A stretch of DNA of 34,840 nucleotides, taken from NCBI GenBank assembly GCA_945906965.1, contig CAMDRP010000021.1, positions 1-34,840 on the forward strand. The letters are read 5' to 3'. The notes under the pieces were generated by a model, which did no database searches, was not told where the DNA came from, and was given only the letters and a program-made list of their open reading frames with translations. This document shows positions 15,608 through 19,277 of this stretch, in pieces. The position numbers were made by a program, and so were the translations under genes. How positions within the stretch are numbered: position 1 is the stretch's first letter; each line of letters begins with the position of its first letter. Origin of the DNA: Opitutus sp. GAS368 (GTDB taxonomy: Bacteria > Verrucomicrobiota > Verrucomicrobiia > Opitutales > Opitutaceae).

Positions 15608-17203
15608 ATGGCAATCATGACCCAGGTTGCCACGCCCTCCTCGCTCGACGCCGCCGCGGCCGATGCTGAATTTTATCTCCCGGCTGACGCTTTCTTCCGC
15701 GCCAACCTGCCCACGGCCCTCACGTTCGACGACGTCTCGCTCGCCACGCTCCATTCGGAGATTCTCCCCAAGTCGGCCGATACCGCCACGTCCCTTTCGG
15801 AATCGCTGCGGCTGCACATTCCGATCATTTCCTCGGACATGGACACCGTCACCGAGTCCCGCATGGCCATCGCCATGGCGCTCAACGGCGGCCTCGGACT
15901 CATTCACTACAACATGCCGGCCAAGGAGCAGGTGAAGGAAGTCGCCCGCGTCAAACGCCACATCCACGGCCTCATTCAAGACCCCATTTCCGTCGGACCC
16001 GATCTATTCATCGGCGACATCTTGGCCATGATCGAAGCCAAGCGTTTCTCGTTTTCCACGTTCCCCGTCGTCGACGCCGCTGGTCGTCTCGCCGGTCTCC
16101 TCTCCGGCAACGTCGTCAAAGAGCGCTACAAATCCAAACGCGTCTTTGAAGTGATGACCCCGCGCGCCGCCCTCATCACCGAGACGGCCGCCGCCGCCGC
16201 GCAAGATCCCATCTCCGCCGCCGACCGCTTCTTCACCGCCAACGTCGGTATTAACAAAATGCTCGTCGTCGATCCCGACGATCGTCTGCGCGGCCTCATC
16301 ACCGCCTCCGACGTCGAGCGCATCACCACCGAGGCCAAAGCCCGCCGCAAGCCCGCCCGCGACGCGCATTTTCGTCTCGTCGTCGGCGCCGCCCTTTCGC
16401 CGATCCGTCTGCCCGACGGCTCGCTTGATCGTGAAAAAATCTTAGCTCACGTCGGCAACCTCGTCGACGAATCCATCGACGCCGTCGCCGTCTCCACCGC
16501 GCACGGTCACACCGCCGGCGTCGGCGACATGGTGAAACTCGTCCGCGCCGCGTTCCCCGATCTCACCATCATCGCTGGCAACGTCACCAGTGCCGCCGGC
16601 ACCGAGTTCCTCGCCGATTGCGGCGCCAACGCCATCAAGATCGGCCAAGGCCCCGGCTCGATTTGCACCACGCGCATCGTCGCCGGCGTCGGCATTCCCC
16701 AACTCACCGCGCTCTACGTCGCCAGCACCGCCGCCAAGAAAAAAGGCGTCAAACTCCTCGCCGACGGCGGTATCACCAAGTCCGGCGACATCGTCAAAGC
16801 CCTCACCCTCGCCGATGCCGTCATCTGCGGCGGCATCTTGGCCGGCTGCCGCGAAGCCCCTGGCGAGATCATGGAGATTAGCGGCAAAGTTTATAAGCAA
16901 TATCGCGGCATGGGCAGCCTCTCCGCGATGAAAGCCGGCAGCGCCGCCCGCTACGGCCACGACAAAAACGACACCGCCCGCAAGGTCACCGCCGAAGGCA
17001 TCGAGGCGCTCAAGGAGGTCAGTGGCTCACTCGACGACACGATCGACAACCTCATCGGCGGCGTGCAGAGCGGTATGGGCTACCTCGGCGCCGCGACGCT
17101 CCCCGCGCTGCGCGCAAAGGCCCGCTACATTCGCGTCAGCCCCGCCGGCCAAAAAGAAGCCGCGCCGCACGACGTGATCGAAGTCTCAACGCGGAAAAAC
17201 TAA
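15608..17203 (+). CDS. guaB: Inosine-5'-monophosphate dehydrogenase (divergent at two conserved positions)
   Basis: A 531-residue IMPDH-family (beta/alpha)8 barrel with two CBS domains inserted (about 125-245; [10 protein letters not shown] and [21 protein letters not shown]). IMPDH oxidises IMP to XMP with NAD, the first step towards GMP. The catalytic loop [18 protein letters not shown] is intact with Cys353, as are DGGI at 387-390, the YRGMGSL phosphate/flap region and the Arg448-Tyr449 pair. Two usually invariant positions differ: the Asp of the NAD-binding V-D-T/S-A-H-G segment is Ser296 (VAVSTAHGH), and the Ser of the phosphate-binding GS pair is Gly409 (VICGGILAG). The ATG at 15608 was taken; an ATG three codons later is possible. 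No Shine-Dalgarno sequence is seen. PurA, the other IMP-consuming branch, lies 5 kb downstream. Confidence 0.92.
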
Positions 17204-17231: not shown

Positions 17232-19277
17232 TCAGGCAAGCCGCGCGAACTGCGGATGTTGCTCGATGCGGCGTTCAAATTCCGCTCGCGCTTCCACCGG
17301 CAAACTCGCCGGAAACTTCGCGTCACTGCGGCGCCAGCGCGCGAGCCAATCTGCACCGAGCAATTTCGGGGCATCTTTGCCATGGTGCACTCCATCGAGC
17401 CGCGTCATCGCCACGGTCGTCGCCGCGCGCGGCCCCGTGCTCACACCTTCGCCGACAAAGAAACCTCCGGCGAGCAACGCCACGCGCACCGCCGTCGCCG
17501 ACGAATACGTGAACAGCTCCGCCGGCTTCGCGCCGCAGTGCGCGAACATGCGTTCAAACACCGCCGGCACCCAGAGCGCCGAATCCGTCTTCGTCGAAAA
17601 CGGATCATAGAAAATCACGTCCGGCGCGGGCGTGGCGGCAAATTTCTCGAGAAAATCCCCATGATGCAGCTCCCACGCCCATTTGCCCGAGTCGTGCGCC
17701 CAGCGGCCGTTTTGCAGCAGCGCGTGAGGCGCGCCGTGACGCAGGTGCGGGAAAAACGTCGCGTGTTTCGCCGCCAACCGCAGCGGATCGAGATCACATT
17801 CAAAACTCACCATCCGCACGGGCCGCAGCGCATCGACGCCATTTTTATCGAGCACGTTTTCAAAACAATGAAGCGCCGCCATCGCGTTGGACGCCGCGCC
17901 AAGACCCACGTCCCAAATCACGAGTTCATCGCTCGTTGTGGGTTGATCCGCGTGAGGCAAGAGGCGCCGGCCCAGCGCGGATTGTTGCACGTAAACTCGC
18001 TCCGCCTCGTCGCTGGGGCGGTTCACCGAGTGCATCACTTCACCCGAACTGAGTTGGCGAATGCTGGCGAAACCTTCGGGTGATTTAACGATGTCGTAAT
18101 CGCCGAGCTTCGGCAGCGTGGCGGGCTTCTGCCGTTTCTGCGGCACACTGGGATTATCGTCGTCGGAACGCGCGAGCTCCGGGCGCTGGCGCTCATAATA
18201 CGCCGCGAAATCCCCCGCGAGAATGCTCGTCCGCATCTCCCGCATAAGGCGGTGATAAAACGCCATGTTATGCGTCGCCAAGAGATGCCAACCGAGCATC
18301 TCGTCGGATTTCACGAGATGATGCAGATAGGCCCGCGAGAAATGTTGGCACGTGTGGCAGTCGCACTTCGCATCGAGCGGAGCTTCGTCGAATTTATAGC
18401 ACGCCCGAGACATCCGGAGTTTGCCGTGCGAAGAAAACACCGTGCCGCGCTGCGCAAGCTGCGAGGGGATGATACAGTCAAACATGTCCACGCCGCGGTG
18501 TACCGCTTCCAAGATATCAATCGGCGTGCCGACGCCCATGAGGTAGCGTGGCAGATTCTTTGGGAGAAAATCGGTCACGAAACCGGTAAATTCATAGCGC
18601 TCCGCGTGCGTCTCACCCACCGCTAGTCCACCGATGGCGAGTCCGTCGAAAGGTAATTGGGTGAGATAGGCCGCGCTCTTTTTGCGCAGATCATGGTGAC
18701 AGGCACCTTGCACGATTCCAAACATCGCTTGTGGGCCGTCGCCGCGAGCACGCAACGAGCGCTCCGCCCAACGGTGCGTCAGGTGCATCGCCGCTTCGGC
18801 TTGGTCGTAAGGCGCCGTCGAGGGGATGCATTGGTCTAGGACCATGTTGATATCGCTGCCGATCGCGCGTTGCATCGCGACGCTCGACTCGGGTGAAAGC
18901 ATGTAGTGCGTGCCGTCGACGTAGCTTTTGAAACGCGCGCCTTCCTCATTCATGTGGCGCTCGCCAGGGAGCGAGAAAATCTGAAACCCGCCCGAGTCCG
19001 TCAGCACCGGGCCATCCCAATTCATGAAGCGGTGAATCCCGCCAAATTTCTTAAACACCTCCGGGCCGGGCCGGAGTAAAAGATGGTACGTGTTCGCCAA
19101 CAACACCCGCGCGCCGGTCGCCTTGAGCGACTCGACGGTCTGTCCTTTCACGGTCGCCTGTGTACCGACGGGCATAAAGATCGGCGTCTGAACTTCGCCG
19201 TGCAGGGTCGTAAACGTGCCGGCGCGCGCTTTCGAGCCGACGGATTCTTTCTGCAACTGGAAATTGAGACGCGACAT
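17232..19277 (-). CDS. tgt: tRNA-guanine transglycosylase fused to an MnmC-type methyltransferase domain
   Basis: A 681-residue two-domain protein. Residues 1-375 are a complete bacterial TGT, which exchanges guanine at position 34 of GUN tRNAs for the queuosine precursor. Visible residues are active-site Asp94 (TDSGGFQIFSL), nucleophile Asp267 (MFDCIIP), and zinc ligands Cys305, Cys307, Cys310 and His336. After a polar linker (about 370-392), residues 395-625 resemble the methyltransferase half of MnmC (Methyltransf_30/DUF752, MnmD). They include a MnmC-like opening (FASIRQLSSGEVMHSVN), an SAM loop (IWDVGLGAAS, 454-463), SFECDLDPLRLA, the FYDPFSTKTDSALW motif and a closing YSSATAVRVALLAGGFFVG. 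MnmC modifies U34 of other tRNAs. The ATG at 19277 is preferred over a longer frame that runs into the divergent gene's promoter. Usual TGT length is about 375, so this is a real fusion. Confidence 0.9.
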   Translation of the reverse strand: MSRLNFQLQKESVGSKARAGTFTTLHGEVQTPIFMPVGTQATVKGQTVESLKATGARVLLANTYHLLLRPGPEVFKKFGGIHRFMNWDGPVLTDSGGFQIFSLPGERHMNEEGARFKSYVDGTHYMLSPESSVAMQRAIGSDINMVLDQCIPSTAPYDQAEAAMHLTHRWAERSLRARGDGPQAMFGIVQGACHHDLRKKSAAYLTQLPFDGLAIGGLAVGETHAERYEFTGFVTDFLPKNLPRYLMGVGTPIDILEAVHRGVDMFDCIIPSQLAQRGTVFSSHGKLRMSRACYKFDEAPLDAKCDCHTCQHFSRAYLHHLVKSDEMLGWHLLATHNMAFYHRLMREMRTSILAGDFAAYYERQRPELARSDDDNPSVPQKRQKPATLPKLGDYDIVKSPEGFASIRQLSSGEVMHSVNRPSDEAERVYVQQSALGRRLLPHADQPTTSDELVIWDVGLGAASNAMAALHCFENVLDKNGVDALRPVRMVSFECDLDPLRLAAKHATFFPHLRHGAPHALLQNGRWAHDSGKWAWELHHGDFLEKFAATPAPDVIFYDPFSTKTDSALWVPAVFERMFAHCGAKPAELFTYSSATAVRVALLAGGFFVGEGVSTGPRAATTVAMTRLDGVHHGKDAPKLLGADWLARWRRSDAKFPASLPVEARAEFERRIEQHPQFARLA

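Follow-up and report, generated by a model that had tools for sequence, protein, structure and literature searches.

Bacterial tRNA-guanine transglycosylases (TGTs) are regarded as enzymes with a single task, namely queuosine at GUN anticodons. On the uridine side of the wobble position, nm5U34 is made by MnmE/MnmG from ammonium. The protein described here resembles bacterial Tgt (PF01702, TIGR00430; Z. mobilis structure 1q2r) in its fold, Asp102/Asp280, preQ1 pocket and zinc site, but it is a second copy in a separate clade, carries an extra C-terminal enzyme and has Arg286, usually Arg289, and Asn290 replaced. That C-terminal enzyme has the fold, the SAM motif I, the acidic residue and the catalytic Asp of the stand-alone MnmD/MnmC2 methyltransferases (3vyw, Z 24.0; Methyltransf_30), but it lacks the motif Pro and Asn, scores below the NF033855 cut-off and is joined to a TGT. 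In bifunctional MnmC (MnmC2-MnmC1) and in MnmL-MnmD chains the same methyltransferase family is likewise tied to another wobble enzyme. Here the fusion partner is a base-exchange enzyme instead of an FAD oxidase or a radical-SAM enzyme, and the order is reversed with respect to MnmC. The pathway of the phage DNA guanine transglycosylase DpdA, which reportedly involves (methylamino)methyl-7-deazaguanine, would be a precedent for N-methylated preQ1, and Cui et al. (2023) reportedly described N-methylated preQ1 as a naturally occurring base of phage DNA. In that pathway, however, the target is DNA and the transglycosylase is distant. Among the titles and abstract openings listed by literature searches, no earlier description of a TGT-methyltransferase fusion was found.

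The window is the whole stretch of DNA that was analysed, 34,840 nucleotides from Opitutus sp. GAS368. The fusion frame is open in one piece on its minus strand, from 19277 to 17232, and encodes 681 residues plus the stop codon, with a start methionine that aligns with those of its relatives. The original prediction had given these limits correctly, and its two domain assignments, a full TGT followed by an MnmC-like methyltransferase, are borne out by Pfam and NCBIfam profiles. The TGT profile PF01702 matches residues 16–363 (18189–19232, minus strand, as are all features below) with an E value of 2.9e-145, and the Tgt equivalog TIGR00430 scores 453.4 bits for the N-terminal part against a cut-off of 306.75. 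A linker of residues 364–390 (18108–18188), with model confidence below 50 at 381–383, leads to the MnmC2/MnmD-like domain, residues 391–681 (17235–18107). Methyltransf_30 (PF05430), the profile first proposed as a check on this domain, matches its core at residues 516–624 (17406–17732) with an E value of 1.1e-11 and 45.1 bits, where the cut-off is 22. The MnmC2 equivalog NF033855 scores 57 bits over residues 411–608, under its cut-off of 136; the four other relatives tested fall short of it as well, the solo ones with 71 and 70 bits and the MnmL-MnmD domains with 99 and 123 bits. The MnmC1 FAD oxidoreductase domain is absent from the chain, with no DAO or TIGR03197 match in Pfam and NCBIfam. 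An open frame on the plus strand at 15608–17203, which we take to resemble guaB (IMP dehydrogenase), converges with the gene, and the two ends are 28 bases apart.

The AlphaFold model of the whole protein has a mean pLDDT of 87.0. Its TGT part superposes on the TGT-RNA complex 1q2r with Z 51.8 and an rmsd of 1.8 over 371 residues. TGTs filled all of the top 50 matches listed in the fold search with the whole model, and the methyltransferase was therefore folded separately (pLDDT 87.9). It is most similar to MnmC2 of A. aeolicus (3vyw; Z 24.0, rmsd 3.3 over 244 residues) and to E. coli MnmC (Z 21.8), and spermidine synthases form the next group, from 17.4. An assembly join or a chance arrangement is rejected, given the single open frame and the 78 relatives, out of the best 80 of 314, that are likewise fused. 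A dead-enzyme reading of either domain is also rejected for the window protein. The fusion in the window is confirmed as real.

A search with the C-terminal domain matched 130 of the 384 genomes of the host's class. Match rows show a fusion-length frame of 571–867 residues in 44 of the 384, with the TGT part read directly in 34 and the others judged by frame length. Two class genomes (G529 and G476) have a near relative with an intact methyltransferase and no TGT part at that locus, and five (G187, G190, G199, G462 and G577) keep the TGT with a shortened, decayed methyltransferase behind it. The match in G500 is cut by a contig end, and the other class matches are mostly solo-length frames with about 32–44% identity. 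Of the 314 relatives that a pattern scan found in named genomes, the best 80 were retained. The methyltransferase frame also holds at least part of a TGT in 78 of these 80 loci, and in the remaining two (L144 and L191) the match starts at a contig end. Under their MAG names as submitted, the fused relatives include many Opitutaceae, four Riflebacteria MAGs and several 'Deltaproteobacteria'/Binatia. The fusion is a family and not one chimera. Within at most 8 kb per side, no family of frames outside the fusion recurs in more than 19 of the 80 fused loci. Around the solo methyltransferases no neighbour family recurs in more than 3 of 19 loci, and their retrieved flanks hold no TGT match in any of the 19. 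G364 also has another TGT-methyltransferase fusion (C5, L227:3723-5627, plus strand), which is more diverged and whose SAM motif is altered to VTMGTAGNAM; it was left out of every count.

In two direct listings an ordinary TGT is present as well in all 29 genomes that carry the fused one (24 + 5), split over contigs in G075 and cut by a contig end in G098. The ordinary gene of the window's own genome is G000:C19:1914-2990 (L072). An ordinary TGT is likewise found in 20/20 genomes with a solo methyltransferase only (that of G311 being two complementary pieces on two contigs) and in both of two fusion-free relatives listed directly. In a phylum sample of 288 genomes, each of the 15 with a recognised fused TGT (12 intact fusions and 3 with a decayed methyltransferase) has at least two TGT matches. 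Only four of the other 273 (G114, G209, G220 and G278) have at least two, with no recognised fusion. In a TGT tree of 75 rows, built by a quick method and with a long-branch warning on the Z. mobilis row, fused and ordinary TGTs form separate groups with an SH-aLRT of 100. Ordinary TGTs are 42–48% identical to the TGT part of the window protein; fused TGTs outside its own genome are 60–82% identical. This co-occurrence, tree separation and identity gap mark the fused gene, on sequence grounds, as a distinct TGT paralogue, a second TGT. A replacement of the queuosine pathway by the fusion is rejected, as QueA is present in 40/40 genomes. Two further TGT-like matches are observed in G560: a distant protein 22% identical to the TGT domain (C11, L228:3805-4572, plus strand) and a weak match about 11 kb from it.

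Residues of the TGT part (Z. mobilis numbering) were compared in 78 named rows, with one or two gaps or X per site, in an 82-row set of these plus 4 genome-sample rows, and in 31 genome-sample rows. In the window protein the catalytic Asp102 is D94, in a TDSGG motif (18987–19001). The preQ1 pocket lies in GGLAVGE (18612–18632), where G217, L218, A219 and E222 correspond to Gly230, Leu231, Ala232 and Glu235. The nucleophile Asp280 is D267, in MFDCIIPSQLAQRG (18444–18485), and the zinc site is formed by C305, C307, C310 and H336 (18270–18365). The full TGT with zinc site and both catalytic Asp that had been proposed is hence found. Throughout the fused family Asp102, Asp156, Cys158, Gln203, Gly230, Leu231, Ala232, Glu235 and Asp280 are kept in 80/80 readable rows of the 82-row set and in 31/31 genome-sample rows. 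Counted on the named rows, Asp102, Asp280, the base-binding Asp156, Gln203, Gly230 and Met260 are each kept in 76/76 readable rows, and again in 31/31 of the genome sample. Leu231, Ala232 and Glu235 are described as a switch that binds the aminomethyl group of preQ1 (PMC3660597). The zinc ligands Cys318, Cys320 and Cys323 are present in 81/82 fused rows (the other is a gap) and His349 in 82/82. The zinc cysteines are all kept in the fused paralogues, unlike in many ordinary TGTs of the genomes compared; the ordinary TGTs L062–L087 and L091 are often without them (Cys318 8/26, Cys320 8/26, Cys323 16/26).

The loop next to the nucleophile is altered, with Q273, Q276 and R277 of the window protein replacing Arg286, Arg289 and Asn290. 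At the Arg286 position Gln is found in 76/76 readable named rows and in 80/80 readable rows of the 82-row set, and the 31 genome-sample rows have Q in 28, K in 2 and A in 1. At the Arg289 position the 76 named rows have Q in 66, H in 5, R in 4 and K in 1, and the 31 genome-sample rows have Q in 29, R in 1 and K in 1. The Asn290 position is Arg in 76/76 named and 29/31 genome-sample rows. In ordinary TGTs, Arg286 and Arg289 are Arg in 50/50 readable rows. Arg286 and Arg289 presumably read U33 and U35. Arg286 lines the space joining the ribose-34 and phosphate-35 pockets of the twisted TGT dimer (PMC5395182), and a UGU loop is given as the minimal TGT substrate (PMC10103133). We infer from these residues that the RNA choice of the fused TGT may be altered and that its base choice and chemistry would be unchanged.

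The methyltransferase half was analysed in an alignment of 30 fused rows, from which duplicate loci, the TGT-free L048 and the truncated row of G187 type were excluded. All 30 rows share SAM motif I (WDxGLGAxxNAM), the catalytic Asp and the acidic residue without variation. In the window protein motif I is VIWDVGLGAASNAM (17880–17921), with W, D, G, G, N, A and M invariant in the 30 rows. The acidic residue is E493 of SFECD (17793–17807), aligned with Glu101 of E. coli MnmC, whose role is described in PMC3648344. The catalytic D558, corresponding to MnmC Asp178, is kept in YDPFSTKTDSALW (17571–17609), where the Pro and Asn that come next in MnmD are lost. The earlier expectation that relatives keep the SAM-binding residues holds for the 30 aligned fused domains; in the five genomes of lineage f11 g39 the C-terminal half of the methyltransferase and the acidic residue are gone.

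The reference motif D-x-[FY]-[SA]-P-x-x-N-x-x-[ML]-W reads D-[PMF]-[FY]-S-x-[KR]-x-x-x-x-x-W in the fused domains. Its Asn is kept in 19/19 solo sisters, 21/21 readable MnmL-MnmD rows (L009, which gave no motif, is not in this count) and 2/2 MnmC rows, and Thr stands in place of Pro in 5/21 of the MnmL-MnmD rows. In the fused motifs the Pro is found in 0/76 named and 0/30 genome-sample rows and the Asn in 3/76 and 1/30 (4/106); the two sets may share genomes, and two named rows and one genome-sample row gave no motif. In the methyltransferase tree the fused domains cluster together next to the solo group, with supports of 100/99 and 97/88, and the TGT-free G529 protein and the truncated G187 protein fall inside the fused group. 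In E. coli MnmC, according to PMC3648344, Asp178 is the probable base and Pro182 is more than 98% conserved and given as SAM binding. The simplest reading of the motif is that the methyl acceptor of the fused domain would have changed; loss of the Pro and Asn might instead tune SAM binding.

Seven fusion genomes (G411, G461, G347, G515, G381, G560 and G364) hold an extra solo-length relative, three of which are placed in the solo clade by the tree, one was read and three are known by match rows alone. Because these genomes hold a solo-length relative too, the function of the fused methyltransferase is probably not simply that of the solo one. In the same phylum the domain is otherwise found fused behind MnmL/YtqA or in front of MnmC1. 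The MnmL/YtqA proteins with a C-terminal MnmD comprise L006, L012 (L012:223-1983, plus strand) and 20 further loci, in other classes of the phylum. Two of these proteins were tested, and their MnmL/YtqA part matches TIGR01212 of NCBIfam with 241 and 234.7 bits; the 20 further loci were assigned from the length of the frame, the position of the match and the tree. The MnmL radical-SAM enzyme (a name from NCBIfam) and MnmC1 presumably form the 5-aminomethyl group that this domain then methylates, and the MnmL-MnmD chain is a one-chain alternative to MnmC. Two MnmC proteins, L229:443-2275 (plus strand, G427) and L230:1074-2873 (minus strand, G364), have a degenerate-looking N-terminal half and an intact MnmC1; their methyltransferase half gives no Methyltransf_30 match.

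Pathway genes were compared between a fusion set of 25 genomes (24 with a fused TGT, including the decayed G187, plus G529) and 15 fusion-free family relatives. QueA is present in 25/25 and 15/15. QueF, which makes preQ1, is present in 23/25 and 12/15; it was not found in the fusion genomes G411 and G490. QueG is present in 21/25 and 14/15 and was not found in the window's own draft genome G000, which is 96.8% complete. We conclude that preQ1 is available in most fusion genomes and that their queuosine probably comes from the usual pathway. MnmG is found in 25/25 and 15/15, 39 of them over the cut-off and the own-genome copy cut by a contig end. MnmC1 exceeds the cut-off in 2/25 of the fusion set and 0/15 relatives, MnmM is found in 2/25 and 1/15, and Methyltransf_30 in 0/15 fusion-free relatives. 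A profile search of the window genome, which answers the original question about a separate mnmC or mnmD, found no other Methyltransf_30. G274 has a second, borderline match of 22.4 bits. As 15/15 fusion-free relatives are without Methyltransf_30 and 14/15 without MnmM, nm5U methylation looks dispensable in the family. G187, the sole tested genome of the decayed lineage f11 g39, has MnmM, a known nm5U methyltransferase. MnmM and MnmC are reported as mutually exclusive elsewhere (PMC9976899). In G427 MnmC1 is present and, in searches for relatives of the C-terminal domain, MnmC1 and MnmM, the fused domain is the only candidate found for nm5U methylation.

Since an ordinary TGT is also present and Arg286/Arg289 are replaced, the fused gene probably does not just encode the queuosine TGT of the genome joined to an mnm5U enzyme. 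The original prediction was right about the fusion, the identity of the domains and the intact active sites, and it missed the second-TGT status and the arginine replacement. Of its two proposals we prefer a methyltransferase with a new role tied to queuosine chemistry over two wobble modifications per chain. Tentatively, we favour a two-step RNA-modifying enzyme in which the fused TGT inserts preQ1 and the fused domain N-methylates it. The second TGT would first exchange guanine for preQ1 (7-aminomethyl-7-deazaguanine) in RNA. Because the conserved arginines adjoining the nucleophile are replaced, the site would be other than, or not limited to, U33-G34-U35 of the four GUN tRNAs. The MnmD-like domain would then use SAM to methylate the exposed primary amine of preQ1, which would yield 7-(methylamino)methyl-7-deazaguanosine (N-methyl-preQ1). 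Alternatively, the ordinary TGT may place the preQ1 that is methylated, in agreement with the lineages that keep only the methyltransferase. The architecture, paralogy, residue retention and replacement and predicted fold are direct observations, and it is from these that we infer the inserted base, the target RNA and the methyl acceptor. In particular, preQ1 is proposed as acceptor because MnmC1 and MnmL, the other partners of the same domain, supply an aminomethyl substrate and a TGT supplies aminomethyl preQ1. To our knowledge, N-methyl-preQ1 is known only from phage DNA. The bolder form of the proposal, a TGT of new RNA specificity that inserts preQ1 outside GUN anticodons for conversion to N-methyl-preQ1 by its own domain, hence a new RNA nucleoside pathway, is rather doubtful as a whole.

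The preQ1 reading is consistent with the ordinary TGTs in 29/29 and 20/20 genomes, the kept active-site, pocket and zinc residues, the changes at Arg286/Arg289 and at the Pro and Asn, the solo-length relative in 7 fusion genomes and QueF in 23/25. Several observations argue against it. Some lineages keep the TGT without the methyltransferase, and others the methyltransferase without the TGT. MnmM is present in G187, the one genome tested there, as if the lost job were nm5U methylation, and the fused domain is the only candidate found for that job in G427. With a GUN tRNA as target, QueA (40/40) would be a competitor for the preQ1 amine; G411 and G490 lack QueF, and Arg289 is kept in 4/76. Among the neighbour families, compared by recurrence, none ties the fusion to queuosine genes. 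The loss of Pro and Asn might also concern SAM binding, for which Pro182 is listed in PMC3648344.

The explanation that survives best beside it, and a quite possible one, is that each chain holds two independent wobble enzymes, a second TGT acting on G34 or a related site and an MnmD domain converting nm5U34 to mnm5U34. The closest solved folds are MnmC2 enzymes with SAM and catalytic residues kept in the fusion, MnmG is present in 40/40 genomes, and other nm5U methyltransferases are rare (MnmM 2/25, MnmC1 2/25), with no other Methyltransf_30 in the window's own genome. The separability of the domains, MnmM in the one tested genome of the decayed lineage and the case of G427 fit as well, and in E. 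coli MnmC the two activities are mutually independent (PMC3648344). However, 7 fusion genomes already hold a solo-length relative, and the family seems not to need nm5U methylation, as 15/15 fusion-free relatives have no Methyltransf_30 and 14/15 no MnmM. The acceptor-side motif is unlike those of the solo, MnmL-fused and MnmC types examined. The NF033855 score of 57 against 136 also counts against this explanation, though four other relatives tested fall below the cut-off too, and it gives no reason for joining the domain to a TGT with changed contact residues.

That the TGT part is a duplicate of the ordinary queuosine enzyme, working on GUN tRNAs perhaps under other conditions, with the methyltransferase acting on another amine, e.g. 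queuosine, would agree with the TIGR00430 equivalog cut-off being passed and with QueA in 40/40 genomes and QueG in 21/25 of the fusion set; it is improbable, as no fused row read retains Arg286 and an ordinary TGT is present in 29/29. Very improbable is a TGT part that performs no base exchange and serves only as an anticodon-loop holder presenting tRNAs to the methyltransferase, as might be suggested by the replaced Arg286/Arg289 and by the position of the domain N-terminal to an active-looking methyltransferase, since the catalytic Asp, base pocket and zinc site are unchanged in 80/80 readable rows and lineages with a decayed methyltransferase still keep the TGT part.

What is new here, judged from sequences, is a second TGT that is widespread, has altered RNA-contact residues and is fused to a diverged MnmD-like methyltransferase, a combination that suggests a methylated RNA base. 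If the chain held two independent wobble enzymes, it would join the guanine-34 and uridine-34 pathways; we know of no earlier one-chain joining of the two, also among the publications listed by literature searches. On the favoured preQ1 reading, a widespread paralogue with intact catalytic parts and replaced RNA-contact arginines predicts that RNA contains a methylated 7-deazaguanosine, at a site that may be new.
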